Below are positions 14,206 through 46,093 of a DNA stretch of 64,000 nucleotides, in pieces. The translations under genes and the position numbers were made by a program. The DNA is from Sorghum bicolor (Eukaryota; Streptophyta; Magnoliopsida; Poales; Poaceae): positions 17,601,344 through 17,665,343 of the forward strand of contig NC_012877.2 of the NCBI RefSeq assembly GCF_000003195.3. The letters are read 5' to 3'. The notes beneath the pieces were generated by a model that saw only the letters and a program-made list of their open reading frames with translations, was not told where the DNA came from and made no database searches. The number at the start of each line of letters is the position of its first letter. The stretch's first letter is position 1.

Positions 14206-14252
14206 CATCTTTTGGCACGCTCGGTGGGACCAGATTCAAGATCAAGATCAAC

Positions 14253-21130: not shown

Positions 21131-21140
21131 AAGTTTAGGT

Positions 21141-21230: not shown

Positions 21231-21283
21231 TAGACTAAAAGCTGAGGAAGCAGGAAAGCGCAGATAGAATGCCGATGGAAACT

Positions 21284-24200
21284 CTATGTGTTAAGCAGCG
21301 TCTGGATTGCCGATATAGCGCGTAGCCGAATTTGGTTGGCTGCTTCTATCTCCTTGATGTCATCATCGGCAGAACCTTCTATCGGCTTCAGCTTCTTCTT
21401 CAGTTGAAGTGCCTTGCGACCATGAGCATTTCGCTCGTGCTCAAGAAGCCTGATGGTCTCTGGCAATTGGCTCTCTTCCTGTTGGGCTTGGGACAGAGCG
21501 TTCTCCACTTCCTTGAGCTCCGCCAACAGAGATTCTTTTCTTACCGATAGATCGGATATCTTCTGCTTCAGTGTGTCTCCAGAAGATCTCAGGATACCGA
21601 TGTTCTTGTGCTTCTCATCGGTCAAAAGCTTCTCTTTCCTCATTTCATCGGAGAGTTGAGTCTGAGCGGCTCTATCGGCAAGACGCCGAGAAGCTCTCTG
21701 GTACTGCAGCTAGCGACTCTCTAGATGAGCGGCTTGGAACAGGATTTCTTCAACGTCGGCTGGGATTTGGCCTCTGAGAGTTCTGAACAGGGTCTTGGTA
21801 GGGTCGGAATCATCAACCAATTGCGCTGTGTCCTGGTGAAGGAGAGCTGACAATTCTTCCAGCCTGACCCTGATCTCTGCCGATGTGATGCCGACTGTCT
21901 GAGAAGAGCTTGCTTCTTCACCTTCTTCTTCAGAGAGATCGATGGCGAAGGAGAACAGGCTATCGGGAGAATCTTGTTCCTGGGAGGGAAAGTAAAATTA
22001 GCTCATATTCAGAGAATCGGCAAATAATGCTAACGGTAAACGGTGACTTACTTGCTTCAAGGCGATCTCTTGTCTTTGACTGAGAAGTGCTGACGGAGCT
22101 GCAGGCTGATCGGCCAAAGATGCCGATGGAACTAAAGGTTGATCGGCTGAGATTGCCGATGGAACGATATCAACTGAAAGAAGACAAGAGGAGTTATGAG
22201 ACTAAATGAGAATAAGTTCATCGGTAGCGATATTGTTAAAGTATGTTACCTGGAGGAGGAACAACGGTTGTCTGAATCGGGAGAACTGCCGATGGTATAA
22301 CTGGACCCACCGGGCCAGTTGTTTGTTCACCCATGTCAGCTGATGTATCTTCTGTTTGAGATCCTTCCTGCTGGGGTTCTTCTATCAGTGGTGCTTCCTG
22401 CATAGGTGGGGGAGATGGTGCTTGCTGTGGCTGGGCTTCTGGAGAAGAAGGAGAAGACTCCACCGGAATTGGAGACACCGGAGGAGGAGGGGGAGTTGCT
22501 ACCTTCTGGCGCTTTGTTCCAGTCTTAGCACCTGTGGTGCCCTTTCTCTTTGGTTGGCTAGACTGGGGGGCATCGGCACTTTCACGCCTGGCTTTTGCCG
22601 ATACGCCGGTTTGCTGCAATAACGAACAAGAGTTTATAAGCGTAAATATGGCCGATATAAAGATAGTCAGCATAAAGGAAAAGATTTGACAGATTGCCTT
22701 GAAAGCCCGCGCCAGAGTGAGGGTAGCTACCGTTGGTGATGTCTGGGTTCTCCTGGTGGTGACTTTCCTGAGACGCACACCCCGATGCACAATGGAAGCC
22801 AGGGTGGGAGCATTGTGGCCGATGGAAGAAATCAGGCCTGATGGAAACAAGTCGATCGGCTTGCCGCTCCTGCTAACCGATGGGGGGATGTTGTCAACCT
22901 GCAAAAAGAATACAAGGGTAAGCTACCGATGGAAATAGTATTGAGAAAATGAAACATTGGTTTGAGTTACTTACAGTGTCATCGGGAACTTCGTATTCGG
23001 AGTCAATCATGCCGCGGTATGAAAGTGCCGATCTGCAAAATAGATGCTCTTTCCATTCTGCCCACCATAACTTGTATGCCTGAGTGATAAAAGCAGCCGG
23101 AACCCATTCTGACAGATCTACATCTGTATCGGCGTTTGGTGGTAGTTGGGCTACTCGAATCCACTCAAGGAGGTTGTTGATGGTTTCTCTGGGTTTTATC
23201 ACATCGGCATAAGGAAGTGCAATCGGCAACTGGCCGAAAGCTAACTGGCGAGCTAATGCCGATGGATTGTAAAATTCATAAGTCTGAGGTGAGGTTTTTG
23301 TGCTACCAAAGAAATTCACTGGAATGATTCTGGGAGTTACAATTGCCATCTTCGCTTCATTATCCCTGTCGAGAGCTTCATCAAATGGATTGAAGGTCTG
23401 AGGGAGCATGCTATCTAGGTCATCATAAGCCAACCATGGTCGTTCGTCTCTGGCCAAACCCTCATACAGAGTCTGGAAGAATCGGCCGATTTGATCCGGA
23501 TTACTCCCTGAACCAGGTAGAACGATGACAGCTTCGCCAAAGTTCAAGGGGGCACGCGTTGCCGATTCCTCTTCACCCAACACATGGTTTTCGGCTATAT
23601 CTCTTGGGAAGTGCTGTGTGAACAAGTTGAAATCAAGGCGCTTATGTAGGTGCAGATTGAGCCACATATTAATAAACCACCAGGGGCCTCCCAAGTTGCT
23701 GATGGACTGGCCAAGCAGAAGTTTCTGGGCTACCTGATGAAGAAGATGGTAAACAGCGCCAAGCAAGTATTGGCCGAGAGGAAATTGGCCACCGTTAGCC
23801 AGTCTTTCTGCTGCCGATAGATAGACGGAAGTCGGCCCTGCCGATCGACCACAGAATACAAACTTGTCCAGCCACATGTTCAGAAAGGTGGTTTGTTCCT
23901 TTATGGTAACAGATCCTTTCCCACGGTACTTCTGGATGTACCCTGACCAACCGCCGATAGCGCGAGTCTCCACCTTGGCACTAGGGGCAGTATCAAAAAA
24001 ATGGGTGCTATCGGCAGAAGATATGTCTAGACTAGTAAGCATGGCTACATCGGCAAGGGTAGGAGAAGCAGGGCCGTGGCCAAAGGCAAAAGCATTAAGG
24101 GTGTGTGACCAAAAGTAGGATGCAGCTATCAGCAGTGACTCATTCCTATGCATATCGGCGATAGACAACCTAATGCATTGGGCTAGTTTCCATTCGCCCC

Positions 24201-24582
24201 ACTGAACTTCATAAGAATTGCTGACTCTCAAGAACCAGTCTTTCCACCCTACGGTAGGGCTAGGCCAAGAGCGGAAGGAATCTTTCCACAAATCTAACGA
24301 AAAATTTTCAGTTCTGAAGGGGATCCTGTTGGTTTCTGCGTTAATGAGTTCGGTTGGATCTGGATCTCGTAGAGGACCGAGACATTAGAGGTGTGGTTGA
24401 TCAGTGGGGATGACAATTTTATTGGACAATTCCTAGTGATTTTTGGGAATAAAAATAAATACAAAGAGGAAAGAAAAGGGAGATATTCAGTAAAATGAAT
24501 TGCGAATGAACAGGGATATGAAGGAAAAATACAGGAGACGGGGTGGAGATTTGACCTCAGGGACGACGAAGCCGACGGCCAT
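21284..24582 (-). pseudogene. Antisense plant-mobile-domain gene of element A (broken)
   Basis: Same six-exon structure as in B: exon 1 24,582-24,556, exon 2 24,432-22,975, exon 3 22,898-22,698, exon 4 22,613-22,250, exon 5 22,173-22,052, exon 6 21,979-21,284. Exon lengths are 27, 1,458, 201, 364, 122 and 696 nt. A TAA near 24,387 in exon 2 (CAA in B) and a TAG near 21,716 in exon 6 (CAG in B) destroy it. Exon 4 keeps the frame that B has lost. The exon 3 donor is GC (AAG|GCAATC). Confidence 0.75.
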
Positions 24583-24730
24583 CTTGCTGCGAAGAGAGCG
24601 TTTGGGGGCGCCGGAGTTGATGAAGAGGAGTACTTGTCGAAGATCTTGGGAGTTTTGGATGGCGCCGCCGCTGGAAAAGTAAAGTTGGGTAGTAGAATGG
24701 TGTGATGGGGAAGGAGTACCCGAGAAGGGA

Positions 24731-24740
24731 CTATTTATAG
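24731..24740 (-). promoter_or_regulatory. TATA box of the antisense gene (element A)
   Basis: The minus strand reads CTATAAATAG about 150 bp upstream of the ATG at 24,582. The region 24,583-25,207 is otherwise non-coding and rich in GCCGAT/ATCGGC. Confidence 0.55.
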
Positions 24741-25207
24741 GACAAAATGGGCAAGGGCAAATCTGACTTATCTCTTTGCCGCATCCGAGAAATCCGAGGG
24801 TACTCAGGTGGATATGGTAACTGTTCGCACGATAATCTAGGGATTGTGTAGGTGATTTGATGGGAAGCGATCATTATCTGAAGATATTTTACTATGCAAG
24901 ATCTCCTGGTCGGTCCATCGGCAACGTTCTATAACGGTCATATTGCCGATGGGCGGATAGAGGGGAAGTGACCGTTTGTGCGAATATCCTGGTCAGAACA
25001 TCGGCAGATCTTTGTAACGGTATTATTGCCAATGTACGGTTGAGAAGAAATGCCCGTTTAGGAAGTTGGGGATTTCGAGGAATCTGCGGAGGAATAGGAT
25101 CAGAGTTGTTCAGATTGAGGTTGTCGGTTACCGATTAGGAGCATTAATTGCGGGAGAAGGCATCATTACTGCAGAGAATTTCGGAGCATTAGTAGTTTTA
25201 TACTCCG

Positions 25208-25222
25208 AAACTGGGGGGCATG
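25208..25222 (+). other. Polypurine tract of element A
   Basis: AAACTGGGGGGCATG lies directly before the 3' LTR start at 25,223, the expected plus-strand primer position. Confidence 0.75.
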
Positions 25223-25922
25223 TGTTGACACCGTTTTTGGGCACGTGTCTAGGATGGCAGGATGAGGTGGCAGTACGATGTTTACGAGGTGAGTTGCCGA
25301 TAAGGATGGTTGCCGATGAAGGAGAAGTTGAACGTGACTAAGTCTACAGGCAGTGATATGACTGTGCCGATGGCTGGATAAGAAAGTCTGCCGATGACTA
25401 TGGCAAAGGGTCTGCCGATGATGCAAAGAGGGAGTCCGGGAGCTGCCGGTCGTTATGTGAGGGAGTTTCAGTTTGTCACGGGGGATAGTTTTGTTATTTC
25501 CTTAATTATTTACATCGTTTTGTATACGGATTCCGTATAGTTTGGAATTCGAATTCTAATCGTTTCTGGTTGTAGCTCTTTGAGCAGGGTATAAATATAG
25601 ACCCTAGGGCCTTGTAATGAGACATCTATCAATCAATCAAACACACGTTTTTACTCATATTCCAGCATCTACTTTTCGACGACTTCGTCATACTTTTTCC
25701 CTTTTATTACGAGTTCTTAGGAATTCGTCGACTTAAGCTCGGCGTGTTCTCAAGTTCCGCGTGAGTACCTCTTAGCCGTGACATCCGGGCGCATCGCTGT
25801 TGTCAGGACTAAAGTATTCGAGTTATCACCTTTGCCGATGGTAAGGTCAAATCGGCTGGCACGCCTTAACGTTTGAATCGGGTATTAGCCCTTTGTGTTT
25901 GCAGATCAGTTTTGCATCAACA
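25223..25922 (+). repeat. 3' LTR of element A
   Basis: 700 bp. By eye it differs from the 5' LTR at four single bases and no indels (about 0.6%), which indicates a young insertion. Confidence 0.9.
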
Positions 25923-28449: not shown

Positions 28450-29145
28450 TGTTGACACCGTTTTTGGGCACGTGTCTAGGATGGCAGGATAAGGTGGCAG
28501 TACGATGTTTACAAAGTGGGTTGCCGATGAGGATGGTTGCTGATGAGGGAGAAGTTGAACGTGACTAAGTCCACAGGCAGTAATATGGTGCCGATGGCTA
28601 GATAAGAAAGTCTGCCGATGACTATGGCAAAGGGTCTGCCGATGATGCAAAGAGGGAGTCCGGAAGCTGCCGGTCGTTATGTGGAGGAGTTTCGGTTTGT
28701 CACGAGGGATAGTTTTGTTATTTCCTTAATTATTTGCATCGTTTTGTATACGGATTCCGTGTAATTTGGAATTCGAATTCTAATCGTGTCTGGTCGTAGC
28801 TCTTTGAGCAGGGTATAAATATAGACCCTAGGGCCTTGTAATAAAAAATCAATCAATGAATCAAACACACGTTTTTACTCATATTCCAGCATTTACTTTT
28901 CGACGACTTCGTCATACTTTTTCTTTTTGTTACGAGTTCTTAGGAATTCGTCGACTTAAGCTCGGCGTGTTCTCAAGTTCCGTGTGAGTACCTCTTAGCC
29001 GTGACATCCGGGCGCATCGCTGTTGTCAGGACTAAAGTATTCGAGTTATCACCTTTGCCGATAGCAAGGTCAAATCGGCTGGCACGCCTTAACATTTGAA
29101 TCGGGTATTAGCCCTTTGTGTTTGCAGACCAGTTTTGCATCAACA
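28450..29145 (+). repeat. 5' LTR of element B, followed by PBS
   Basis: TGTTGACACCG...GCATCAACA, 696 bp, TATA box GGTATAAATATAG near 28,811. The PBS region CATCTTTTGGCACGCCCAGTGGGAC follows at 29,146. Confidence 0.9.
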
Positions 29146-29192
29146 CATCTTTTGGCACGCCCAGTGGGACAGGATTCAAGATCAAGATCAAC

Positions 29193-32100
29193 ATGTCGAT
29201 CTCTGACCTCGATCAAGAGAACGTCATCCCCGTGACGGAGGCCAACCTCAAGGATGAGCAGAAGCAAGCTTTTGCCCAAGCCATGGAAGAGTTCAAGCAG
29301 CAATGCCTGAGGTCTTTCAGCATAAACAGGAGCGGCGAAGTGGTCCAGAAAGATGCACTGCCGGCACCACGGCAGGTTACCTTTGACGCCAATCCTGGCA
29401 AGCTTCAAGATATGGTTGACAATGCCATCAATCGAGCGTTGATTAACCAAGCTGGTGTACTGTCTAATACGGTTTTCAATGCCGTGGCAAGAACTTTCAA
29501 GGAAGGACAAATCCCACCAGATTATGTGGGCCCCTCCCATCATCAGCCAACGGCACCAGAGGTCACGGCTCCATCGGCTGCCTTGACGACTGCAAGTGCA
29601 CAATCTGCCGTCCCTCCAAGTACATCAGGGACTACTGGCGCACTATCTATGCCGATGACAACCAACCCACAAATTTCAGTTGGGCAGCATAAACTGACAA
29701 CAGATATGTTGGCATCGGCAATGTCAGGGTTGACTCTTCCTCCCAACTGGTGGGGTTACGGTATGCCTCCAGAGTTGACACCGGGAACATCACAAATAAC
29801 TGACATGAGGGGCAAAACTCCTATGACATCGGCACCTCCCAATGCGCCGGTGAACCAGAGTCCTCGGTATACCACAACTACTACTGCAAGGCCTCACACT
29901 GGAAATCCTCAAGATTCAATGTTCCAGATGCCCAACGCATCGGCAGAGTCAATGCTGATGCAACAGAGGTCTATGGCCCAGTCGGGGTATGTCAATTCAA
30001 CGACAGTACCCAATTACCAATCATCGGCAGCACCTATGCCGATGAACGCTAATAATGGATGGCTTGGACAGCAAGCCTTTCCACAATCGCCCCAGCAGAG
30101 TTACCAGACTACAGGGTTCCAGCAAGGGCAGGTCTATCCCGGGTTCCAAGGTCAGGGGATTCCCAACCAGCCAATGAATTTTGGACAGCAACTCGGGGGA
30201 CAGCCAATCGGTGGACAGCAGTTTGGTGGTCCGCAGATTGGAGGACAGGTGATCAATACAATGTTCCGTGCAGATCACGTCCCGAACAGACACGTGGAGG
30301 TTCGCCACCAAGTGCCAGATCCGCAGCCGCCTCATCGGCAAGATGCCGATGCATATTGGGCCGATAAGATTGCTGAAGTAATGAGGGAACAATTTGGGAT
30401 AAAACCCAAAGTCAACACTTATTCTTATCGGACACCGTATCCTCCCGCGTATGATTTGATCCCGCTTCCACATCGGTACAAGGTACCGGATTTTACAAAG
30501 TTTTCCGGGCAGGACGACACGTCAACCATGGAGCATGTCAACAGGTTCATCATTCAATGTGGAGAGGCTGGTAACAGGGACGAATTGAGGGTTCGTCTAT
30601 TTTCATCATCATTGTCTGGATCGGCCTTTACTTGGTTCATATCATTACCTCCCAACTCAGTAATTACTTGGGCCTATCTAGAGAAGCAATTCCACAAATA
30701 CTTCTTCTCGGGGGTTCATGAGAAGAAGATCACCGACTTGGTCAAGTTGAGGCAACGTAATGATGAGTCGGTTGAGGGTTTTGTGCAGAGGATACGAGAG
30801 GTCAAGAATAAATGCTATAGCTTGGTTCTGGATGATCGGCAGCTAGCCGATTTGGCTTTCCAGGGTTTGTTGCCACATATCAGGGATAAGTATGCCTCTC
30901 AGGAGTTCGAAAGTTTAAGTCATTTGGTGCAGAGGATTTCTGATCAAGACATCAAGCCTTTCGAGCCTAAAAGAGCATGGAATAGGAAAGTGTCATTTGT
31001 CGATGAAGCAACAAGCTCAGATTCTGATGAAGAACCAGTAATCGGCTTGGCAGAGTGGGTAAAAAACAAGAAGCCGATGTCTTGTCCTTTTGGGCAGAAG
31101 GAACCAGAGAAGTTTTCTTTTGACACCGCTAAGGCTGATAGGATATTTGACTTTCTACTTCAGGAAGGTCAGATCAAACTGTCACCTAACCATGTGATCC
31201 CATCGGCAGAAGAGTTGAAGAGGATGAGATATTGCAAGTGGCATAATGCAACTTCCCATGACACCAACGAGTGCAAAGTATTCAGACAGCAGCTGCAATC
31301 GGCTATAGAGTCAGGGAGAATCAAGTTTGACAGTTCCAAAGCCCAGAAGCCGATGAAGATAGACCAACATCCTTTCCCGACAAACATGTTGGATGCTAAG
31401 GGGAAGGCTAAGGTCTTAACATCGGAGACAGCTGAGAAGAGTGCATCGGTAGATCCTCAGCATCAAGTTACTACTGCCGATGCAAGAAGTAAGGGCTTGG
31501 TCCAGGAAGGAACTAGCTCAGGAAGGCCTCCTCGGTCTGGTATCGTCATAACTCATAGAAGGCCTCGAGAAAATTGGCAACAACGGGAAGATCGGTATCG
31601 GCGCCAGCAGGAAGATTATCGACGGGAAGAAGAAAGACGCCGACAGGAGTGGAATCGGCACAGGGATCATTGGAATTGTCCATTCTTCATCCATTGTTGG
31701 GAGGAAAATATCAAGCTTCCTACTGTCAGAGACTGCCCTGAGTGCAACGGTTATGATCGGTACGATGGGATCGATCGGCATTATCATGATGATGAACGGC
31801 GATTTAATGGGCCGATCAGAGGAAGGGTGTCAGTTCATGACCGGCTGGGGGGCAGATTTAGTGGGCACGACAGACTTAGTGACCGTGTCCAGTATTTTCC
31901 CAGGAACCAAGAAGAGCTCGAGGAAATGGCTGATGCGCGGGTTCCTGATGAATTCATATTTTGCAGGGATGCTAACACACATCGTATGGAGTCAAGGGAG
32001 AACCGACGCCCGACGGCAAGGCAAAGGCCACTTCCTCCATGGTGCCCTGGAGGATTAACCAAGACACAGAAAAGGAGATTGCAACGTGAAAGGCAAGAAG

Positions 32101-32840
32101 AGCTAAACAAGGGAGAGAACTCTGGAAGTCGGCAGCCGTCAGACACTAAGAGGGAAGGTCCATCGGCAGGCGTCAACATGGTCTTCATGTTGCCGATGGA
32201 GTTTCTTGCACCAGCCAGTGATGATGAGTTGGAATTTTCTGATCAGATAGCTCAGTTGGCTCTGGATCCGATGATGGCTATCTTTGAGAAACCTACCGAT
32301 GACGAGAGGCAGCATCTTAAAGCTCTGTTCCTCAAAGGAAGGGTTGATGGGCAGCCAATGACCAAGATCCTAGTTGATGGTGGAGCTGCTATTAATATTA
32401 TGCCATATGCAGTATATCGGAAGCTTGGGAAAGGGGATCAAGATTTGACCAAGACCGATATGATGCTCAAAGACTTTGAAGGAAACGTGTCTCCAGTCAA
32501 GGGGGCGATATGTGCAGAGTTGACCATCGGCAGCAAAACCTTGCCGACAACTTTTTTCGTGATCAGCGAAAAAGGTGCTTACAACTTATTATTGGGAAGA
32601 GATTGGATTCATGCCAATTGTTGTATCCCATCTACAATGCATCAATGCTTGGTTCAGTGGGTAGGTGACAAGATTGAGATTGTCCCAGGAGATTCTTCTT
32701 ATGTTATCGCATCGGCAGAAGCGGATACTTACGAAAGGACCAGGTGCATTTCAGGAGAAGTTTGGGAGAAAGATTTTCTCAAAGTTGTCGATTATGAGAT
32801 TCCACCGATCCAAGCAGTCGGTTCTGATGACGGTTTTTAA
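29193..32840 (+). CDS. Gag-protease polyprotein of element B (Tat lineage)
   Basis: 1,215 codons from the ATG at 29,193, chosen because an upstream in-frame ATG (29,118) lies inside the LTR. Residues about 150-370 are low-complexity, rich in Gln, Pro, Gly and Met. Residues about 430-600 are the capsid-type gag domain (YKVPDFTKFSGQDD, FSSSLSGSAFTWFISLPP). A zinc knuckle of CHHC type follows (C681, H684, H689, C694). A second Cys/His cluster lies near 829-851 (CPFFIHCW ... DCPECN) after an Arg/Glu-rich segment. The retropepsin domain has LVDGGAAINIM (D1062) and ends near LLGRDWIHA. The product forms particles and matures the polyproteins. The stop TAA shares its last A with the ATG of pol. All blocks have counterparts in A and C. 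Confidence 0.92.
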   Translation: MSISDLDQENVIPVTEANLKDEQKQAFAQAMEEFKQQCLRSFSINRSGEVVQKDALPAPRQVTFDANPGKLQDMVDNAINRALINQAGVLSNTVFNAVARTFKEGQIPPDYVGPSHHQPTAPEVTAPSAALTTASAQSAVPPSTSGTTGALSMPMTTNPQISVGQHKLTTDMLASAMSGLTLPPNWWGYGMPPELTPGTSQITDMRGKTPMTSAPPNAPVNQSPRYTTTTTARPHTGNPQDSMFQMPNASAESMLMQQRSMAQSGYVNSTTVPNYQSSAAPMPMNANNGWLGQQAFPQSPQQSYQTTGFQQGQVYPGFQGQGIPNQPMNFGQQLGGQPIGGQQFGGPQIGGQVINTMFRADHVPNRHVEVRHQVPDPQPPHRQDADAYWADKIAEVMREQFGIKPKVNTYSYRTPYPPAYDLIPLPHRYKVPDFTKFSGQDDTSTMEHVNRFIIQCGEAGNRDELRVRLFSSSLSGSAFTWFISLPPNSVITWAYLEKQFHKYFFSGVHEKKITDLVKLRQRNDESVEGFVQRIREVKNKCYSLVLDDRQLADLAFQGLLPHIRDKYASQEFESLSHLVQRISDQDIKPFEPKRAWNRKVSFVDEATSSDSDEEPVIGLAEWVKNKKPMSCPFGQKEPEKFSFDTAKADRIFDFLLQEGQIKLSPNHVIPSAEELKRMRYCKWHNATSHDTNECKVFRQQLQSAIESGRIKFDSSKAQKPMKIDQHPFPTNMLDAKGKAKVLTSETAEKSASVDPQHQVTTADARSKGLVQEGTSSGRPPRSGIVITHRRPRENWQQREDRYRRQQEDYRREEERRRQEWNRHRDHWNCPFFIHCWEENIKLPTVRDCPECNGYDRYDGIDRHYHDDERRFNGPIRGRVSVHDRLGGRFSGHDRLSDRVQYFPRNQEELEEMADARVPDEFIFCRDANTHRMESRENRRPTARQRPLPPWCPGGLTKTQKRRLQRERQEELNKGENSGSRQPSDTKREGPSAGVNMVFMLPMEFLAPASDDELEFSDQIAQLALDPMMAIFEKPTDDERQHLKALFLKGRVDGQPMTKILVDGGAAINIMPYAVYRKLGKGDQDLTKTDMMLKDFEGNVSPVKGAICAELTIGSKTLPTTFFVISEKGAYNLLLGRDWIHANCCIPSTMHQCLVQWVGDKIEIVPGDSSYVIASAEADTYERTRCISGEVWEKDFLKVVDYEIPPIQAVGSDDGF

Positions 32841-35800
32841 TGGATAGATTCGCCGATGATGGAAAATTAGGCCAGGGATTCACATCGGCCGATGATTTGG
32901 TAGAAGTAGATATAGGTAGTGGTGATAAGCCTAGGCCTACTTTTATTAGTGCTAAATTAGATCCTGAGAGTAAGCAACAATTGACTAGTTTGTTAAAGGA
33001 ATATAAAGATTGCTTTGCTTGGGATTATACCGAGATGCCTGGTTTAGACCGATCAATTGTTGAACATCGGTTACCCATCAAGTCTGGATTTCGGCCACAT
33101 CAGCAACCAGCCCGCCGATGTAATCCTAACATTCTACCTGATATTAAGGCCGAAATCACCAAACTTATTGAAGCTAAGTTTATTCGGCAGTGTCGGTATG
33201 CCGAGTGGATTTCCAATGTTGTTCCGGTTTACAAGAAGAACGGGAAGCTTCGGGTGTGCATTGATTTCAGGAATCTCAATAAAGCTACGCCGATGGATGG
33301 ATACCCAATGCCTGTCGCCGATCTACTGGTTGATGCTGCGGCTGGTCATCAGGTCATCAGCTTCATGGATGGTAATGCAGGTTACAATCAAATATTCATG
33401 GCGGAGGAGGATATTCCGAAAACCGCATTCAGGTGTCCTGGTCATGTTGGGCTATTGGAATGGATAGTCATGACTTTTGGGTTGAAGAATGCTGGTGCTA
33501 CTTATCAAAGGGCTATGAATTTTATATTTCATGAGTTCATCGGCAAGCTCGTGGAGATTTATATTGATGATGTGGTGGTTAAGTCTGGAGATTTCTCAAA
33601 GCATCTTGCCGATTTACAAAAAGTGTTAGAGTGCACAAGGAAGCATGGATTGAAGATGAATCCCAACAAGTGTGCATTTGGTGTATCGGCAGGGCAGTTT
33701 CTTGGTTTCATGGTACATCAGAGGGGTATTGAAATTAGTCGAAGATCTATTGATGCCATCAATAAAATAGTGGCCCCTACCAACAAAACCGAGCTTCAAT
33801 CCTTGATCGGCAAGGTAAATTTTATCAGGAGATTTATATCAAATTTGTCTGGTAGGATTCGTGCTTTCAGTCCTCTTCTTAAATTGAAAGCCGATCAAGA
33901 GTTTATTTGGGGAGAAGAACAGCAGTTGGCTCTGGATGAAATCAAGAAGTATCTAGTAAATCCTCCAGTTCTAGTTCCACCTCAACAAGGGAAGCCCTTC
34001 AGATTGTATTTATCTACCGATGGATCGGTTATCGGTTCAGCTTTAGTTCAAGAATTTGAAGGGAAAGAAAGGGTAATTTATTATTTGAGTAGGAGGTTGA
34101 TTGATGCTGAAACCAGGTATTCGGCCATTGAGAAACTATGCTTATGCCTATATTTTTCATGTATCAAGCTGAGACATTACCTGTTATCGGCCGAATGCAC
34201 TGTTGTTTGCAAAGATGACGTGGTCCGATACATGCTATCTATGCCGATTATGAGTGGTAGGATCGGTAAATGGATTTTAGCGCTGTCGGAGTTCGATTTG
34301 CGTTACGAATCGGCTAAGGCAGTCAAAGGGCAGATTATGGCCGATTTTGTGAGTCAGCATTGCGGTCTAGTGGAAACCTTGGAAATTGTACCCTGGACGC
34401 TCTTCTTTGATGGATCTACCTGTGACCGGGGGGCAGGAATCGACATTGTATTAGTTTCCCCTAAGGGGAGGAAGTATGAGTTTTCCTTGCCGATTGTTGC
34501 CACATCAACAAATAATCAGGCTGAGTATCAGGCTCTGATCAAGGGATTGGAGTTGTTAAGAGAAGTTCGTGCTGATGCTGTTGAAATATTCGGGGATTCT
34601 ATGTTGGTTATAAATCAATTGGCCGGAAGCTATGAATGCCGAAGTGAAGTTCTCATAACTTATTTCGAGAGAAGTATGCAACTGTTAAAGGAATTCAAGG
34701 ATTTCCGATTGGAGCATGTTCCCCGATTGCATAATGAAGACGCTAATCGGTTAGCTCAGCATGCCTCGGGATATCAGCCAATGATTAATGCGACATCGGC
34801 AGTCGGTGCCGGTGATTGGAGGAAAGAAATTATTGATTATCTAAAAGATCCATCCAAAAAAGTTGAAAGACGGGTTCGATTTCAAGCAACCAAGTATGTG
34901 CTCCTTGAAAATGAATTGTATTATCGAACTATCGACGGAATTCTTCTCCGATGCTTGGGTGATGATGAAGCTAGAAGTTTGATGGGGGAAATCCATGAAG
35001 GAGTGTGTGGAGCGCATCAGTCAGCTTTTAAGATGAAGTGGATGATTCGAAGGAATGGATATTTTTGGCCAACCATACTTGAAGATTGTTTTAAATATTT
35101 CAAGGGATGTCAAGGTTGTCAAAAGTTTGGTAATATCCAGAGAGCACCCGCATCGGCTATGAATCCTATAATAAAGCCTTGGCCATTCCGGGGATGGGCC
35201 ATCGATCTGATCGGCCAGATTTATCCACCATCTAGCAAAGGGCATAAGTTCATTCTAGTTGCCACTGACTATTTCACTAAGTGGGTTGAAGCTATTCCTT
35301 TGAAGAAAGTCACATCGGCCAATATGATTGATTTTGTGAAGGAGCATATTATTTACCGATTTGGGATTCCCCAAACGATTACTACCGATCAGGGCACCAT
35401 GTTCACATCGGGGGAGTTCGATGAATTCGCAATCGGTATGGGAATTAAAGTGTTGAATTCTTCTCCTTATTATGCTCAAGCCAATGGGCAGGCCGAAGCG
35501 TCTAACAAAGGAATTATCAAGCTTATTAAACGAAAGATTGAAGAAAATCCTAAGCGGTGGCATACATTATTAAATGAAGCATTGTGGTCTTATCGGATGG
35601 CTTGTCATGGATCGACCAAAGTATCACCCTATCAATTGGTGTATGGACATGATGCAGTGTTGCCTTGGGAAATTAAGGCTGGATCTAGGCGATTATCTTT
35701 TCAAGATCAATTAACTTCCGATGGTTATGCCACTTTGATGACCGATGAATTGGACGATCTAGCAGGGCATCGGTTAAAAGCTTTAATGAGTATAGAAGAA

Positions 35801-36073
35801 AATAAGAAGAGAGTTGCTAGATGGTATGATAAGAAAGTGAAGGCTAAAGAGTTTGCCGATGGGGATTTGGTATGGAAATTAATTTTACCAATTGGGACCA
35901 AAAGTTCGAAGTTTGGAAAGTGGTCTCCTAATTGGGAGGGTCCTTATCGGATAAGTCGATCGGCTCCTGGTAATGCCTACATTCTAGAAACCCTCGAAGG
36001 AATTGAATTTCCCAGAGCATTAAACGGCAAATATTTAAAGAAGTACTACCCCAGTATATGGGTCGATGCATAG
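32840..36073 (+). CDS. Pol polyprotein of element B: RT, two RNase H domains, integrase
   Basis: 1,077 codons in one frame. RT: CIDFRNLNKATPMDGYPMP, FMDGNAGYNQ (D177) and YIDD at 241-244. The first, gypsy-type RNase H carries LSTDGS (D394) and SAIEKL. A second RNase H of the archaeal/plant type follows with all four acidic residues visible: FFDGS D524, AEYQAL E562, GDSM D586, HNEDAN D634. Two RNase H domains are a known mark of the Tat lineage. Integrase has an HHCC finger (H719, H726, C757, C760) and a D,D-35-E core (D789, D850, E886). It has no protease of its own, which is in the upstream frame. The -1-shifted overlap (TAATG) suggests reinitiation or a shift links the two products. Confidence 0.93.
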   Translation: MDRFADDGKLGQGFTSADDLVEVDIGSGDKPRPTFISAKLDPESKQQLTSLLKEYKDCFAWDYTEMPGLDRSIVEHRLPIKSGFRPHQQPARRCNPNILPDIKAEITKLIEAKFIRQCRYAEWISNVVPVYKKNGKLRVCIDFRNLNKATPMDGYPMPVADLLVDAAAGHQVISFMDGNAGYNQIFMAEEDIPKTAFRCPGHVGLLEWIVMTFGLKNAGATYQRAMNFIFHEFIGKLVEIYIDDVVVKSGDFSKHLADLQKVLECTRKHGLKMNPNKCAFGVSAGQFLGFMVHQRGIEISRRSIDAINKIVAPTNKTELQSLIGKVNFIRRFISNLSGRIRAFSPLLKLKADQEFIWGEEQQLALDEIKKYLVNPPVLVPPQQGKPFRLYLSTDGSVIGSALVQEFEGKERVIYYLSRRLIDAETRYSAIEKLCLCLYFSCIKLRHYLLSAECTVVCKDDVVRYMLSMPIMSGRIGKWILALSEFDLRYESAKAVKGQIMADFVSQHCGLVETLEIVPWTLFFDGSTCDRGAGIDIVLVSPKGRKYEFSLPIVATSTNNQAEYQALIKGLELLREVRADAVEIFGDSMLVINQLAGSYECRSEVLITYFERSMQLLKEFKDFRLEHVPRLHNEDANRLAQHASGYQPMINATSAVGAGDWRKEIIDYLKDPSKKVERRVRFQATKYVLLENELYYRTIDGILLRCLGDDEARSLMGEIHEGVCGAHQSAFKMKWMIRRNGYFWPTILEDCFKYFKGCQGCQKFGNIQRAPASAMNPIIKPWPFRGWAIDLIGQIYPPSSKGHKFILVATDYFTKWVEAIPLKKVTSANMIDFVKEHIIYRFGIPQTITTDQGTMFTSGEFDEFAIGMGIKVLNSSPYYAQANGQAEASNKGIIKLIKRKIEENPKRWHTLLNEALWSYRMACHGSTKVSPYQLVYGHDAVLPWEIKAGSRRLSFQDQLTSDGYATLMTDELDDLAGHRLKALMSIEENKKRVARWYDKKVKAKEFADGDLVWKLILPIGTKSSKFGKWSPNWEGPYRISRSAPGNAYILETLEGIEFPRALNGKYLKKYYPSIWVDA

Positions 36074-36083
36074 AAGTTTAGGT

Positions 36084-36175
36084 ACCGATAACACTCCTAT
36101 CGGCTGGATCCAAATATGCTTGGGGACAAGACTTGGTGTTTCAAAAGTTTAGGTGCCGATAACAGTCCTATCGGC
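36084..36175. promoter_or_regulatory. Tandem hairpins between pol and the antisense gene (element B)
   Basis: 36,155-36,175 is GCCGATA-N7-TATCGGC with a perfect 7-bp stem. 36,084-36,104 is the same with one end base changed (ACCGATA). They lie in the 155-bp gap between the convergent 3' ends of pol (36,073) and the PMD gene (36,229). Confidence 0.55.
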
Positions 36176-36228
36176 TAGACTAAAAGCTGAGGAAGCAGGA
36201 AAGCGCAGATACAATGCCGATGGAAACT

Positions 36229-39200
36229 CTATGTGTTAAGCAGCGTCTGGATTTCCGATATAGCGCGTAGCCGAATTTGGTTGGCTGCTTCTATCTCCTT
36301 GATGTCATCATCGGCAGAACCTTCTATCGGCTTCAGCTTCTTCTTCAGTTGAAGTGCCTTGCGACCATGAGCATTTCGCTCGTGCTCAAGAAGCCTCATG
36401 GTCTCTGGCAATTGGCTCTCTTCCTGTTGGGCTTGGGACAGAGCGTTCTCTACTTCCTTGAGCTCCGCCAACAGGGATTCTTTTCTTGCCGATAGATCGG
36501 ATATCTTCTGCTTCAGCGCGTCTCCAGAAGATCTCAGGATACCGATGTTCTTGTGTTTCTCATCGGTCAAAAGCTTCTCTTTCCTCATTTCATCGGAGAG
36601 TTGAGTCTGAGCGGCTCTATCGGCAAGCCGCCGAGAAGCTCTTTGGTACTGCAGCTGGCGACTCTCCAGATGAGCCGCTTGGAACAGGATTTCTTCAACA
36701 TCGGCTGGGATTTGGCCTCTGAGAGTTCTGAACAGGGTCTTGGTAGGGTCGGAATCATCAACCAATTGCGCTGTGTCCTGGTGAAGGAGAGCTGACAATT
36801 CTTCCAGCCTGACCCTGATCTCTGCCGATGTGATGCCGACCGTCTGAGAAGAGCTTGCTTCTTCACCTTCTTCTTTAGAGAGATCGATGGCGCAGGAGAA
36901 CAGGCTATCGGGAGAATCTTGTTCCTAGGAGGGAAAGCAAAATTAGCTCATACTCAGAGAATCGGCAAATAGTGCTAACGGTAAACGGTGACTTACTTGC
37001 TTCAAGGCGATCTCTTGTCTTTGACTGAGAAGTGCTGACGGAGCTGCAGGCTGATCGGCCAAAGATGCCGATGGAGCTACAGGTTGATCGGCTGAGATTG
37101 CCGATGGAACGATATCAACTGAAAGAAGACAAAAGGAGTTATGAGACTAAATAAGAATAAGTTCATCGGTAGCGATATTGTTAAAGTATGTTACCTGGAG
37201 GAGGGACAACGGTTGTCTGAATTGGGAGAACTGCCGATGGTATAACTGGACCCACTGGGCCAGTTGTTTGTTCACCCATGTCAGCTGATGTATCTTCTGT
37301 TTGAGATCCTTCCTGTTGGGGTTCTTCTATCTGTGGTGCTTCCTGCATAGGTGGGGGGGATGGTGCTTGCTGTGGCTGGGCTTCTGGAGAAGAAGGAGAA
37401 TACTCCACCGGAATTGGAGATACCGGAGGAGGAGGGGGAGTTGCTACCTTCTGGCGCTTTGTTCCAGTCTTAGCACCCGTGGTGCCCTTTCTCTTGGGTT
37501 GGCTAGACTGGGGGGCATCGGTACTCTCACACCTGGCTTTCGCCGATGCGCGGTTTGCTGCAATAATGAACAAGAGTTTATAAGCATAAATATAGCCGAT
37601 ATAAAGATAGTCAGCATAAAGGAAAAGATTTGACAAATTGCCTTGAAAGCCCGCGCAAGAGTGGGAGCAGCAACCGTTGGTGATGTCTGGGTTCTTCTGG
37701 TGGTGACTTTCCTGAGGCGTACACCCCGATGCACGATGGAAGCTAGAGTGGGAGCATTGTGGCCGATTGAGGAAATCGGGCCTGATGGAAACAAGTCGAT
37801 CGGCCTGCCACTCCTGCTAACCAATGGAGGAATATTGTCAACCTGCAAAAGGAATACAAGGGTAAGCTGCCGATGGAGGTAATATTGAGAAAATGAAACG
37901 TTGGTTTGAGTTACTTACAGTGTCATCGGGAACTTCGTATTCGGAGTCAATCATGCCGCGGTATGAAAGTGCCGATCTGCAGAATAGATGCTCTTTCCAT
38001 TCTGCCCACCATAACTTGTATGCCTGAGTGATAAAAGCAGCCGGAACCCATTCTGACAGATCTACATCTATATCGGCGTTTGGTGGTAGTTGGGCTGCTC
38101 GAGTCCACTCAAGAAGGTTGTTGATAGTTTCTCTGGGTTTTATCACATCGGCATAAGGAAGTGCAATCGGCAACTGGCCGAAAGCTAACTGGCGAGCTAA
38201 TGCCGATGGATTGTAAAATTCGTAAGTTTGAGGGGAGGTTTTTGTGCTACCAAAGAAATTCACTGGAATGATTCTGGGAGTCACAATTGCCATCATCACC
38301 TCATTGTCCCTGTCGAGAGCTTCATCAAATGGATTGAAGGTCAGAGGGAGCATGCTATCTGGGTCATCATAAGCCAACCATGGTCGTTCGTCTCTGGTCA
38401 AACCCTCATACAGAGTCTGGAAGAATTGGCCGATCTGATCTGGATTACCCCCTGAACCAGGCAGAACTATGACAGCTTCGCCAAAGTTCAAGGGGGCGCG
38501 TGTTGCCGATTCCTCTTCACCCAATACATGGTTTTCAGCTATATCTCTTGGGAAACGCTGTGTGAACAGGTTGAAGTTGAGACGCTTGTGCAGATGCAGA
38601 TTGAGCCACATGTTGACAAACCACCAGGGGCCTCCCAAGTTGCCAGTGGATTGGCCGAGCAGAAGTTTCTGGGCTACTTGATGGAGAAGGTGGTAAGCAG
38701 CGCCAAGCAAGTATCGGCCGAGAGGGAATCGGCCACCGTTAGCCAGTCTTTCTGCTGTCGATAGGTAGACAGAAGTCGGTCCTGCCGATCGACCACAGAA
38801 TACAAACTTGTCCAGCCACATGTTCAGAAAGGTGGTTTGTTCCTTTATGGTGACAGATCCTTTCCCACGGTACTTCTGAATGTACCCCGACCAACCGCCG
38901 ATAGCGCGAGTCTCCACTTTGGCACTAGGGGCAGTATCAAAAAAGTGGGTGCTATCGGCAGAAGATATATCTAGACCAGTAAGCATGGCTACATCGGCAA
39001 GAGTAGGAGAAGCAGGGCCGTGGCCAAAGGCAAAAGCATTGAGGGTGTCTGACCCAAAGTAGGATGCAGCTATCAGCAGTGACTCGTTCCTATGCATATC
39101 GGCAATGGACAATCTAATGCATTGGGCTAGATTCCTTTCGCCCCACTGAACTTCATTAGAGTTGCTGACCCTCAAGAACCAGTCTTTCCACCCTACAGTT

Positions 39201-39524
39201 GGGCTGGGCCAAGAGCGGAAGGTGTCCTTCCACAGATCTAAGGAAAAATTTTCGGCTCTGAAGGGGACCCTGTTGGTTTCTGCGTTGATAAGGTCAGTTG
39301 GATCTGGGTCCCCTAGAGGGCCGAGGCATTGAAGGTGTGGTTGATCGGTGGGGATGACAATTTTGTTGGACAATTCCTAGTGATTTTGGGCGTAAAAAGA
39401 AATACAAAGAGGAAAGAAAAGGAAGATGTTCAGTAAAATGAATTGCGAGTGAACAGGGATATGAAGAAAAATACAGAAGACGGGGTGGAGATTTGACCTC
39501 AGGGACGACGAACCCGACGGCCAT
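36229..39524 (-). CDS. Antisense six-exon gene of element B with a plant mobile domain
   Basis: Predicted exons: 39,524-39,498 (MAVGFVVPE), 39,376-37,919, 37,842-37,642, 37,557-37,195, 37,118-36,997, 36,924-36,229. Splice sites are GAG|GTCAAA...CACTAG|GAA, ACT|GTAAGT...TTGCAG|GTT, AAG|GCAATT...TTGCAG|CAA (GC donor), CCAG|GTAACA...TTTCAG|TTG, CAA|GTAAGT...CCTAG|GAA. The joined product would be about 955 residues. Exon 2 holds a plant mobile domain (FGHGPASPTLADVAMLTGLD, FLNMWLDKFVFCG, FPLGRYLLGAAYHLL). The middle is proline-rich with basic, NLS-like PKRKGTTGAKTGTKRQK. Exon 6 is strongly coiled-coil (KQKISDLSARKESLLAELKE). PMD proteins act in plant gene silencing and developmental control; the role inside a retrotransposon is unknown. 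B has lost one base near 37,552 in exon 4 relative to A, so the annotated product is probably frameshifted after exon 3. Confidence 0.75.
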
Positions 39525-39672
39525 CTTGCTGCGAAGGAAGCGTGTGAAGGCGCCGGAGTTGGTGAAGAGGGGTACTTGTCGGAGACCTTAGGAGTTTTTG
39601 GTGGCGCCGCCGCTGGAAAAGTAAAGTTGGGTAGTAGAATGGTGTGATGGGGAAGGAGTACCCAAGAAGGAA

Positions 39673-39682
39673 CTATTTATAG
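39673..39682 (-). promoter_or_regulatory. TATA box of the antisense PMD gene (element B)
   Basis: The minus strand reads CTATAAATAG about 150 bp upstream of the ATG at 39,524, leaving a leader of roughly 120 nt. Identical in element A. The rest of 39,525-40,150 is non-coding and rich in GCCGAT/ATCGGC. Confidence 0.6.
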
Positions 39683-40150
39683 GACAAAAAGGGCAAGGGC
39701 AAATCCGACTTATCTCTTTGCCGCATCCGAGAAATCCGAGGGTACTCAGGTGGATATGGTAACTGTTCGCACGGTAATCCAGGGATTGTGCAGGTGATTT
39801 GACGGGAAGCGGTCATTATCTGAAGATATTTTACTGTGCGAGATCTCCTGGTCGGTCCATCGGCAATATTCTATAACGGTCATATTGCCGATGGGCGGAT
39901 AGAGGGGAAGTAACCGTTTGTGCGAATATCCTAGTCAGAACATCGGCAGATCTTTGTAACGGTATTGTTGCCGATGTACGACTGAGAAAAATGCCCGTTT
40001 AGGAAGTTGGGGATTTCGAGAAATCTGCGGAGGAATAGGATCAGAGTTGTTCAGATTGAGGTTGTCGGTTACCAGATTAGGAGCATTAATTGCTGGAAAA
40101 GGCATCATTACTGCAGAGAATTTCGGAGCATTAATAGTTTTATACTCCGA

Positions 40151-40164
40151 AACTGGGGGGCATG
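40151..40164 (+). other. Polypurine tract of element B
   Basis: AACTGGGGGGCATG directly before the 3' LTR at 40,165. Confidence 0.75.
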
Positions 40165-40860
40165 TGTTGACACCGTTTTTGGGCACGTGTCTAGGATGAC
40201 AGGATAAGGTGGCAGTACGATGTTTACAAAGTGGGTTGCCGATGAGGATGGTTGCCGATGAGGGAGAAGTTGAACGTGACTAAGTCCACAGGCAGTAATA
40301 TGGTGCCGATGGCTAGATAAGAAAGTCTGCCGATGACTATGGCAAAGGGTCAGCCGATGATGCAAAGAGGGAGTCCGGAAGCTGCCGGTCGTTATGTGGA
40401 GGAGTTTCGGTATGTCACGAGGGATAGTTTTGTTATTTCCTTAATTATTTGCATCGTTTTGTATACGGATTCCGTGTAATTTGGAATTCGAATTCTAATC
40501 GTGTCTGGTTGTAGCTCTTTGAGCAGGGTATAAATATAGACCCTAGGGCCTTGTAATAAAAAATCAATCAATGAATCAAACACACGTTTTTACTCATATT
40601 CCAGCATTTACTTTTCGACGACTTCGTCATACTTTTTCTTTTTGTTACGAGTTCTTAGGAATTCGTCGACTTAAGCTCGGCGTGTTCTCAAGTTCCGCGT
40701 GAGTACCTCTTAGCCGTGACATCCGGGCGCATCACTGTTGTCAGGACTAAAGTATTCGAGTTATCACCTTTGCCGATAGCAAGGTCAAATCGGCTGGCAC
40801 GCCTTAACATTTGAATCGGGTATTAGCCCTTTGTGTTTGCAGACCAGTTTTGCATCAACA
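40165..40860 (+). repeat. 3' LTR of element B
   Basis: 696 bp. About seven single-base differences from the 5' LTR and no indels by eye (about 1.0%). Confidence 0.9.
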
Positions 40861-41712: not shown

Positions 41713-44274
41713 CTAACTCGGTGCTACGGTCTCCTCTGGATAATTCTGTTTAAACTCTACGTCTTCTGAACTTACAACTTCTCCTTCATAGTCTGCCCAT
41801 CCGTCCTTGATGATTTGCCTCCTCTGGTTGCGGTTGCGTCGTTGTCTTACCTGCTTAGATTTTTCAACGATATAGTTAGGGTTAGTAAAATAGCGGCGTA
41901 CCTTCTCTGAGGGGAAGTGCATATGGACTTCTCCAGTTCCAATGTAGATGATTGCTTTAACGGTGCTGAGGAACGGTCTTCCAAGGATGATGGGTGGATC
42001 GTATTCATCTTCTCCCTTGTCAATAACTTGAAAGTCTGTGTAGACAAAATGATCGTCTATTTTGACTGGGACATCAGTTACTGTTCCTTTAACTTCTCGA
42101 AACGTCTGATCTGCCATCTGGAGCTGAATGTATGTTGGTGTTAAGGGCATGGTTCCGAACAAGAGCCGATAGGTGACTGTGGCCATTATGTTGACGCCCG
42201 ATCCGGTGTCGCAAAACGTCTTGTAGAAGCTGTATCCATTTATGGAGCAATAGATGCTTGGCATTCCTGGGTCGTCCTTCTTGGTCAAAAACGGTGACTT
42301 AAGTTGATGATCTTGGCCTCCATGAACTGCAGTGACCATCTTAGCTGACTCGGTCCACACTTGCTTGTTCCTGTTCCTCCTGTTGGTCCTCTTTCTTGAT
42401 TCACGTCTGGGTTGATCTGGAATTTGTGTAGTCTTGTTCTTGAAGAAAAATGTCTCCTTCCTCCCTTTGATGTAGAAACTGATCTTGGCAGCACTGGCGT
42501 AGATGATAGCTCCCATGGTGTTCAAGAATGGCCTCCCAAAGATGATAGGTGCCCTCTCATCATTTCCGGTCTCTACCACTACGAAGTCTGCTGGGGCATA
42601 TAAGGTACCAACTCGGACACAGAGGTTCTTCAATATTCCTTTTGGAAAACTTATCGTCTGATCTGCAAACTGCAAACACATGGTTGTCTCTAATAAAGGA
42701 TATGTAAAGAATTTTTCATAGAGTACCCTGGGTATAATGTTGACGCTAGAGCCAAAGTCACAGAATGCTTCTGGGACATCCACCATGCCGATGGAGATCG
42801 GGATGACGGGGCATCCTGGATCACCTCTCCTGACCGGCAGAAGGTCAGTAGTGAATTCAGTGACGGGGTTACTCCAATTATTACCTGCATCAAACATGTC
42901 TACAAGATTTGCATATTCTAATCCTTCCGGTTGTGATGGTATACCGGGGTTAGTAGTAGGAACAGGAGCAGCTATTTGATTTAACTGAGATTCAATCATT
43001 TTATTAAATCTAATTTGATTCTTGATGGCAGTAGAAAAATTATCCATTCTATTATTTATATTTTCTAGCATTTTATCATTAGATGCCAATTTCTTAGATA
43101 GGTTATCCATTAGCTTTACTTGATTAGACACTAACTCTCTCAAAGGTGGAAAATTATTATTATTGTTGTAAGAATTGTTACCTTGATAATTACCTGAGTA
43201 GTTAGGCCTCTGTTGATTCCAACCTTGATTTTGTTGAGGACAGTTGTAGTAGTAGTTGTTGTTGTTGATGTAGTTCACATCCTCAAGTATCTCAGGGCAG
43301 TGGTTGCCTGAGTGTCCAGTGTCTCCACACTCCTCACAAGTCATGTGAGAATCGTAGATGTGCATAACCTCCTTCTTATCTCCAGCTCTATCATCGAGCT
43401 TCTTCATGAGCAGGTCTAGCTTTGCAGACAGCATGTCTACCTCCTTGAGCTGATGCATACCTCCACTTCTCTTGCATGTCTGGGTCCTCTCTTCATTGCA
43501 GCTTTGGTTGGACGCCATCTTCTCCACTAGAGCTGTGGCTTGTGGTATAGTAAGTGATAAGAATGCTCCTCCAGCTGCAGCATCCATGGTTTCTCGGGCA
43601 CTGTTGCCGAGCCCATGATAAAACGTCTGCATCAATAGCCAACTCTCCATTCCATGATGGGGACATTCTAGGATGTAGTCTTGAAAGCGCTCCCATGCTT
43701 TTGGAACAGATTCATCATTTTGTTGCTGAAAACTTGTAATCTTCCCACGGAGAGCATTGGTCTTGCCCATGGGAAAGAACTTAGCCAGGAAGTTTGTTGA
43801 GCAGAGTGCCCACATAGTATTCTTCTCCTTTGTAGCGTAAAACCACTGCTTCGCTCTTCCTAACAGTGAGAATGGGAAGTGGTGAAGTTGTATAGCATCT
43901 TTGGAAACTCCTGATATGGTGAATGTGTTGCATATCTCCAGGAAGTGTTGTAGATGAGCACTAGCATCTTCGTGTGCCTTCCCACAGAACTGGTTGGATT
44001 GCACCATGTTGATAAGTCTAGGCTTGAGCTCAAAGTTGCCGTCGATCTCTGCAGCAGGTCCAGTGCGGATGTTGTCCGTAGTGGGAGCTGAGAACTCGCG
44101 GATCGATTTGTTCGCCATGGCTTCGAACTCTGAAGACAAGTTCCGGTGATCTTCTTGATTGGATGAAGCTTCTTGCTGAAGTGTTGATGATCTCTTCTTG
44201 AGCTTGGCTCTTGTCTTCTTGAATAATGCTTCGGGATTGTCAACAAAATTTCCTGGAAGATGTCTTCTATTCAT
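41713..44274 (-). CDS. E1 gag-protease polyprotein with two tandem retropepsin-like domains
   Basis: An uninterrupted frame of 853 codons starting about 160 bp after the PBS. Residues 95-260 are the capsid-like gag region (FPFSLLGRAKQWF, LAKFFPMGKTNALRGKI, AWERFQDYI). Residues 313-326 form a canonical CCHC zinc knuckle (C313, C316, H321, C326). Residues 337-374 are extremely Asn/Tyr-rich. A heptad-like stretch near 385-435 may be coiled coil. Two homologous aspartic-protease domains follow, about 183 residues apart: domain 1 has FCDFGSSVNI with D506 and a GRPF motif near 580; domain 2 has FCDTGSGVNI with D689 and a GRPF motif near 765. Between them lies a basic linker (RRESRKRTNRRNRNK). The protein would assemble particles and cut itself. 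No RT or integrase follows. The open frame in a non-autonomous element suggests recent activity. Confidence 0.85.
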   Translation of the reverse strand: MNRRHLPGNFVDNPEALFKKTRAKLKKRSSTLQQEASSNQEDHRNLSSEFEAMANKSIREFSAPTTDNIRTGPAAEIDGNFELKPRLINMVQSNQFCGKAHEDASAHLQHFLEICNTFTISGVSKDAIQLHHFPFSLLGRAKQWFYATKEKNTMWALCSTNFLAKFFPMGKTNALRGKITSFQQQNDESVPKAWERFQDYILECPHHGMESWLLMQTFYHGLGNSARETMDAAAGGAFLSLTIPQATALVEKMASNQSCNEERTQTCKRSGGMHQLKEVDMLSAKLDLLMKKLDDRAGDKKEVMHIYDSHMTCEECGDTGHSGNHCPEILEDVNYINNNNYYYNCPQQNQGWNQQRPNYSGNYQGNNSYNNNNNFPPLRELVSNQVKLMDNLSKKLASNDKMLENINNRMDNFSTAIKNQIRFNKMIESQLNQIAAPVPTTNPGIPSQPEGLEYANLVDMFDAGNNWSNPVTEFTTDLLPVRRGDPGCPVIPISIGMVDVPEAFCDFGSSVNIIPRVLYEKFFTYPLLETTMCLQFADQTISFPKGILKNLCVRVGTLYAPADFVVVETGNDERAPIIFGRPFLNTMGAIIYASAAKISFYIKGRKETFFFKNKTTQIPDQPRRESRKRTNRRNRNKQVWTESAKMVTAVHGGQDHQLKSPFLTKKDDPGMPSIYCSINGYSFYKTFCDTGSGVNIMATVTYRLLFGTMPLTPTYIQLQMADQTFREVKGTVTDVPVKIDDHFVYTDFQVIDKGEDEYDPPIILGRPFLSTVKAIIYIGTGEVHMHFPSEKVRRYFTNPNYIVEKSKQVRQRRNRNQRRQIIKDGWADYEGEVVSSEDVEFKQNYPEETVAPS

Positions 44275-46088: not shown

Positions 46089-46093
46089 GTGAT

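Follow-up and report, generated by a model that had tools for sequence, protein, structure and literature searches.

An intron-bearing antisense gene with a Plant Mobile Domain in a Tat-lineage LTR retrotransposon family of sorghum

A window of 64,000 nucleotides (nt) of Sorghum bicolor DNA (assembly GCF_000003195.3, contig NC_012877.2, positions 17,601,344 to 17,665,343) contains a complete long terminal repeat (LTR) retrotransposon, element B, that carries on its opposite strand a six-exon gene for a protein with a Plant Mobile Domain (PMD). The gene lies at 39524-36229, between the end of pol (36073) and the 3' LTR (from 40165). A complete sister element, A, bears a second copy, and element C retains a remnant. 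The gene, its introns, and the selective constraint on its protein are well supported by comparisons among copies. As our best explanation, which we hold to be probable rather than secure, it would be the second transcription unit of a high-copy Tat-lineage element: an intron-bearing antisense accessory gene whose product acts in trans in the nucleus, likely on silencing or transcription.

An earlier note, made from the letters of the window, had claimed a six-exon minus-strand gene in B, and the coordinates and exon lengths (27, 1458, 201, 363, 122, and 696 nt) proved to be as claimed. Exon 1 (39498-39524) supplies the ATG, exon 2 (37919-39376) encodes the PMD (PF10536 by Pfam match), and exon 3 (37642-37842) is followed by a GC donor. 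Exon 4 (37195-37557) encodes a proline-rich linker with a bipartite basic motif; exon 5 occupies 36997-37118; and exon 6 (36229-36924, including the stop codon) encodes a charged, probably helical stretch. Exon 2 is open across all 486 codons. A chance open frame was rejected: in 1000 first-order Markov shuffles of exon 2, the longest stop-free run was 245. The corresponding gene in A occupies 21284-24582 on the minus strand (exons 24582-24556, 24432-22975, 22898-22698, 22613-22250, 22173-22052, and 21979-21284). The agreement of exon lengths and splice sites that had been asserted for A and B holds, save that exon 4 is 364 nt in A and 363 nt in B, owing to a 1-nt deletion in B. All introns are GT-AG in both elements except intron 3, which is GC-AG in both.

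Element C, about 70% identical, allows a more distant comparison. Aligned to B, its minus-strand remnant (54857-56927) is truncated within exon 2, which ends at 56573, and continues through exon 3 (56495-56295), exon 4 (56125-55789), exon 5 (55714-55626), and exon 6 (55553-54857). All alignable splice sites are retained: the 3' splice sites said to be traceable in C are in register at four of four acceptors (exons 3 to 6), as are four of four donors (exons 2 to 5). Identity between B and C is 56 to 62% in the introns and 69 to 73% in the exons. In the spliced frame, differences between the two are most frequent at codon position 3 in each of exons 2 to 6 (0.47, 0.49, 0.38, 0.41, and 0.48), and the introns show no common codon-phase peak. 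The introns of B are also rich in T (0.36 to 0.46, versus 0.22 in the exons).

Two samples extended the comparison to the family. Loci picked by similarity to exon 2 (L009-L038, of which L009 is B) were 30 of 88 scored among 5683 candidates; with A, they gave 31 aligned copies. Because picking by exon 2 similarity lowers exon 2 diversity, 12 further copies were taken by similarity to pol: the first 12 rows of 129 scored among 21031 candidates, excluding B and copies already sampled (rows L010, L019, L026, and L036 were skipped as such). Sought in these other copies, the exon structure recurred. Among the 31 copies, no splice signal is kept in fewer than 28: the exon 1 donor is GT in 31; exon 2 has an AG acceptor in 31 and a GT donor in 28 (AT in 3); exon 3 has AG and a GC donor in all 31; exons 4 and 5 each have AG in 30 and GT in 30; and the exon 6 acceptor is AG in 28. 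Intron 2 measures 76 nt in all 31 copies, and introns 4 (76 nt) and 5 (72 nt) hold their lengths in 30 each. The 12 pol-picked copies agree, with AG at every acceptor of exons 3 to 6, GC at every intron 3 donor, and GT at every donor of introns 4 and 5; the exon 2 donor is GT in 11, and the donor of exon 1 and the acceptor of exon 2 are each retained in 10. The introns claimed by the earlier note are thus borne out by conserved splice sites and by a codon phase that follows the exons, less firmly for intron 3. We infer that the antisense transcript would be spliced by the host spliceosome.

The TATA box attributed to the gene is conserved as well. The motif, TATAAATA, stands at 39681-39674 in B (minus strand) and at 24739-24732 in A, and is present in 30 of the 31 exon-2-picked copies and in 11 of the 13 rows formed by the pol-picked copies and B. 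To judge from this box alone, the antisense gene probably has its own RNA polymerase II (Pol II) promoter.

Perhaps the exon model is partly wrong, with intron 3 coding or with exon 1 and intron 1 misplaced? Intron 3 has a GC donor, is 84 nt long in 30 of 31 copies, and is free of stops in frame 0 in 31 of 31; hence it could be retained in the A/B family. Its B-C difference rate at position 3 is also high (15/28). Exon 1, for its part, is just 27 nt long, has a poor donor context (GAG/GTCAAA), and lies beyond the reach of C. Against this, C carries at the same site a longer intron 3 with a GT donor. Constraint looks weaker on intron 3 variants than on those of exon 3 (nonsynonymous-to-synonymous polymorphism ratio [pN/pS] 0.47 versus 0.25, on small numbers), and intron 3 is T rich (0.46). 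By eye, two Miscanthus protein models, P0001 and P0002, match up to the AFK residues at the exon 3-4 boundary, where intron 3 would lie; both continue through the exon 2-3 boundary, and P0002 also continues through that of exons 5 and 6. We consider an error of this kind unlikely. The GC donor itself is widespread: its pattern has 575 exact matches in the genome, and among the 100 matches listed, 99 have GC and 1 has GT (G000:C1:55021085-55021104). Immediately ahead of the start of exon 6, P0002 has 14 residues that are missing from P0001 (named isoform X2), a difference that looks like alternative splicing around exon 5. At its end, P0002 has an integrase core domain, suggesting that its gene model may be fused to another element.

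How could a retrotransposon keep five introns? LTR retrotransposons pass through RNA, so a sense-oriented gene with five introns should lose them. The earlier note had proposed that antisense orientation explains their survival: the RNA that is reverse transcribed is the sense strand, where the splice sites are reverse complements and cannot be used. Genome counts upheld this proposal. Allowing up to 3 mismatches, 601 genomic sites (297 + 304) match the unspliced exon 2/intron 2 junction, whereas the joined exon 2-exon 3 junction, the one joined junction searched for, has 0. This is the outcome that copying through sense RNA would predict.

To measure selection on the protein, the ratio of nonsynonymous to synonymous substitution rates (dN/dS) between copies was checked. 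Between A and B, the antisense exons gave 0.13 (952 codons), near the values for gag (0.146) and pol (0.142). Between B and C, 335 codons of exons 3 to 6, with no exon 2 codons of C included, gave 0.19 with dS near saturation, and 240 codons of pol gave 0.088. We then separated variants shared by two or more copies from those private to one. Across the 13 rows of the pol-picked set plus B, pN/pS was 0.15 for shared variants and 0.49 for private ones (Fisher P = 3e-9); without three copies that have deletions in exon 2, the values were 0.15 and 0.33 (P = 0.0009). These counts omitted codons readable in fewer than 10 rows of the pol-picked set, 8 rows of the 10-row test, or 80% of rows of the exon-2-picked set, codons with a majority stop, variants with two or more base differences, and exon 5; in the 31-copy set, exon 6 was cut at 505 of its 696 nt. 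In a separate 8-copy comparison, private pN/pS was 0.18 for the antisense exons, 0.21 for part of gag, and 0.28 for pol, and shared pN/pS was 0.12, 0.33, and 0.10, respectively, on small numbers. We read the contrast between shared and private variants as constraint during element replication and drift after insertion. Taken together, the comparisons of copies indicate that the antisense protein is constrained about as much as gag and pol, most strongly in the PMD exon.

These measurements also bear on the idea that the antisense RNA itself is functional, pairing with the sense RNA and limiting or tuning the element via small RNAs. Double-stranded RNA from antisense transcripts is discussed in PMC7264820, and the conserved TATA box predicts an antisense RNA. 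However, RNA pairing needs no open frame, and hence the codon-phase signal in five exons and the dN/dS of 0.13 to 0.19 point to a protein. We regard a purely RNA-based function as very unlikely.

Several results weigh against a simple reading of an intact, uniformly constrained gene. It is exon 2 that produces the contrast between shared and private variants. For exon 4, pN/pS is equal in the two classes once the exon-2-deletion copies are left out (0.33 shared, 0.31 private). In exon 6, shared pN/pS is not lower than private (0.21 versus 0.17; P = 0.78 in the full pol-picked set), both classes being low, and few variants fall in exon 3. Constraint on exon 4 is weak, with shared pN/pS of 1.47 in the exon-2-picked and 0.33 in the pol-picked copies and a B-C dN/dS of 0.48; its shared changes number 17 nonsynonymous and 4 synonymous in the first sample, 18 and 19 in the second. 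Moreover, dS between A and B, taken across 32840-39376 and gag, varies four- to fivefold along the element (0.06 in pol and exon 6, 0.14 in gag, 0.24 in exon 2, and 0.33 in exon 3), as would be expected of mosaics derived from two lineages, so the A/B ratios mix histories. Nor is either copy in the window intact: A has two stop codons in the gene, at residue 25 and in exon 6, and B lacks one base of exon 4, so neither encodes the full product. The deletion is unique to B among the 31 copies, in which exon 4 is otherwise 364 nt long in 27 and 343, 361, or 292 nt in one each. The whole gene is unbroken in just 3 of the 12 pol-picked copies, and a shortened exon 2 (1358, 1266, and 1331 nt) occurs in three of the 12. 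Three of the four skipped rows are stop-free to the end of the alignment, so this fraction understates the intact copies among the top pol rows. In the exon-2-picked sample, which is biased, 14 of 31 copies are unbroken to the end of the alignment, and exon 2 is stop-free in 80 of the 88 scored copies, also a biased sample.

The PMD proposed for the product was recovered by profile search in both copies. PF10536 matched exon 2 of B with 50.8 bits (1.9e-13) and that of A, scored on the part after its first stop, with 57.8 bits (1.3e-15), above the curated cutoff of 34.9; the match is partial, spanning only profile positions 4 to 189 of 347. The coiled coil proposed for the product fared less clearly: its periodicity was reached by 10 of 2000 shuffles, in a test made on a stretch that we had chosen. 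A match of DUF1409 (PF07197) to exon 6 of B scored 12 bits, below its cutoff of 29.2, and a profile of 30 sequences found no match among Protein Data Bank sequences at E values up to 0.1. A search with the A product found two Miscanthus proteins, and a profile search found 111 relatives (best 8000 candidates scored), among them proteins of Miscanthus floridulus, Saccharum hybrid, Urochloa humidicola, Oryza officinalis, O. barthii, O. minuta, O. sativa, and Festuca glaucescens. DUF1409 is precomputed for 5 of the 111; on rescanning, P0089 and P0094 passed the cutoff and P0001 and P0108 failed it. No relative in viral contigs was confirmed among 42 pattern matches. A bipartite basic motif of the form KRK-x-KK/KR occurs in A, B, and all eight relatives longer than 550 amino acids, by a loose pattern written after the sequences had been seen.

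Might the gene instead be a recent capture of a host PMD gene, introns included, carried as a passive passenger? Introns are typical of host genes, and transposons do capture genes. However, a 23-row tree groups A, B, and 14 homologs in a single clade (support 100/100; branch 2.34, with a long-branch warning) apart from seven sorghum PMD matches. The seven are L001-L007 of eight PMD loci, L008 having been omitted; the labels B-like and C-like given to them are our own, and the 14 homologs are known from protein sequence rather than genomic setting. The spread of homologs across Miscanthus, Saccharum, Urochloa, Oryza, and Festuca and the constraint on shared variants also speak against recent capture, which we disfavor as highly improbable.

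Since the relatives share the PMD and the basic motif, we take the product to be an accessory factor that works in the nucleus, perhaps on silencing. Under the mechanism that we propose, Pol II would transcribe the antisense gene from its own promoter, and the host spliceosome would remove the introns of the RNA. The product, comprising the PMD, the basic linker, and the C-terminal helix, would enter the nucleus and work in trans on the element's behalf, its most likely target being the silencing or transcription of the element's own copies, reached through the PMD; the basic motif would serve nuclear entry, and the helix self-association. The step from antisense gene to silencing is tentative, and we consider it less likely to hold than not. 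The role is drawn from published PMD proteins that are genic and distant, which counts against it.

A protein of the same gene anatomy could instead be a nuclear replication factor that assists DNA import, integration, or insertion targeting and has nothing to do with silencing. The basic motif in eight of eight long relatives and a constraint near gag and pol levels would suit such a factor. So would GENE23, the nuclear antisense product of the Grande element, and PMC7264820 suggests roles like those of retroviral accessory proteins. On the other hand, the factor would have to derive from a separate antisense RNA, and the PMD proteins described in PMC5418596 and PMC7156037 work in silencing and gene expression. 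We regard a replication factor as possible but doubtful.

The assignment of the host elements to the Tat lineage, made in the earlier note, was borne out by domain order. Element B (28450-40860, plus strand; LTRs 28450-29145 and 40165-40860; target-site duplication [TSD] ACAGT) has a gag-protease open reading frame (ORF) at 29118-32840 and a pol ORF at 32840-36073, both with Pfam matches. Its domains run in the gypsy order of gag, protease, reverse transcriptase, RNase H, an additional RNase H (RVT_3), and integrase, and the second RNase H, placed between RNase H and integrase, supports the assignment of A and B to Tat-lineage Ty3/gypsy elements. The gag-protease stop overlaps the pol start as TAATG (within 32826-32855) in seven of eight copies, the eighth being without the T, a layout that suggests reinitiation, not a frameshift or an intron, between gag-protease and pol. 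Element A (13506-25922, plus strand) has LTRs at 13506-14205 and 25223-25922 and the TSD ACTAT. The LTR pairs mismatch at 4 of 700 sites in A and 7 of 696 in B. The grass substitution rate is 1.3e-8 per site and year, which would place the insertions at roughly 0.2 (A) and 0.4 (B) million years ago.

Both elements are nested in a larger minus-strand LTR element, D (12967-46093), with the TSD GTGAT at 12967-12971 and 46089-46093, LTRs of about 1.65 kb that mismatch at 23 of 1653 sites, and a gag ORF at 41713-44274. A is inserted in the 3' LTR of D and B in its short internal part. Two Rfam matches to snoR71 (RF00097) at gathering score lie at 43649-43755, opposite the gag ORF of D, and at 59113-59219; none lies inside the antisense gene. 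A transfer RNA scan of the 64-kb window found none.

How does this gene relate to known systems? Earlier publications (PMC5418596, PMC6317226, and PMC7264820) describe Gypsy elements that carry PMD genes, and antisense accessory genes that have a promoter of their own. Ikeda et al. (2017; PMC5418596) assigned two PMD-A clades exclusively to Gypsy elements. Like these, A and B encode a Ty3/gypsy PMD separate from the sorghum PMD matches that we take as genic; the PMD-A reference sequences lie outside our comparison, so any clade identity is by analogy, and the passages of that paper concerned with these clades mention neither orientation nor introns, promoter, or any measure of selection. Neumann et al. 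(2019; PMC6317226), who predicted extra ORFs of at least 250 codons with getorf, report a PMD extra ORF in 57% of Ogre elements. Ogre shares with B this ORF and the second RNase H between RNase H and integrase. In Ogre, however, gag-protease and pol are separated by 274 bp on average, with an intron there in pea and Medicago elements, whereas the two overlap as TAATG in the A/B family, so that B shows the PMD extra ORF of the Ogre clade and not its intron-like separation. The PMD is the most frequent atypical domain in plant Gypsy consensuses (PMC9289625).

Antisense genes offer a second set of likenesses. Vicient (2025; PMC11963269) describes antisense TRP28 genes in Retand elements, with TRP28 (PF04195) in 97% of recent clusters. 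These elements resemble B in size and in having an antisense coding region between pol and the 3' LTR, and some of the proteins have Smc matches, a further likeness to the product here. The Pfam matches of exon 2 (A and B), joined exons 1 to 3 (B), and exon 6 (B) do not include TRP28, and the word "intron" occurs 0 times in the main text of that paper. The review of antisense ORFs in PMC7264820, which calls for a search for antisense and spliced transcripts, describes gene23 of Grande as an antisense gene with its own promoter and a nuclear product, between pol and the 3' LTR. The A/B gene has the same position and orientation, its promoter and nuclear location being predictions; the passages of the review on gene23 mention no PMD and no introns. 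Our literature search, whose coverage did not extend to Steinbauerova 2011 and Gomez-Orte 2013, found no report of an intron-bearing antisense PMD gene.

MAIN and MAIL1, genic PMD proteins of Arabidopsis, act in silencing (PMC5418596 and PMC7156037). The A/B product is likened to them by domain; unlike the A/B gene, they are host genes, not borne by an element. Anti-silencing by captured PMDs of MULE elements is a speculation of PMC5418596. One could picture the element sheltering a true multi-intron gene on its nongenomic strand, the nuclear PMD protein of which would disturb the PMD-based silencing of the host; genic silencing proteins of the MAIN/MAIL type and the antisense factor would then be the opposing sides of an arms race. 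We put this forward as a long shot.

With intron 2 preserved across about 600 matching sites and the antisense protein constrained, this family shows how a split gene of the host style can be carried by an element. Studies of what antisense accessory genes do in Tat elements also gain from it a defined gene model. Surveys of unspliced ORFs will catch exon 2 of such a gene and can miss its other exons. If the protein does act on silencing, element-borne and host PMD proteins would be linked.

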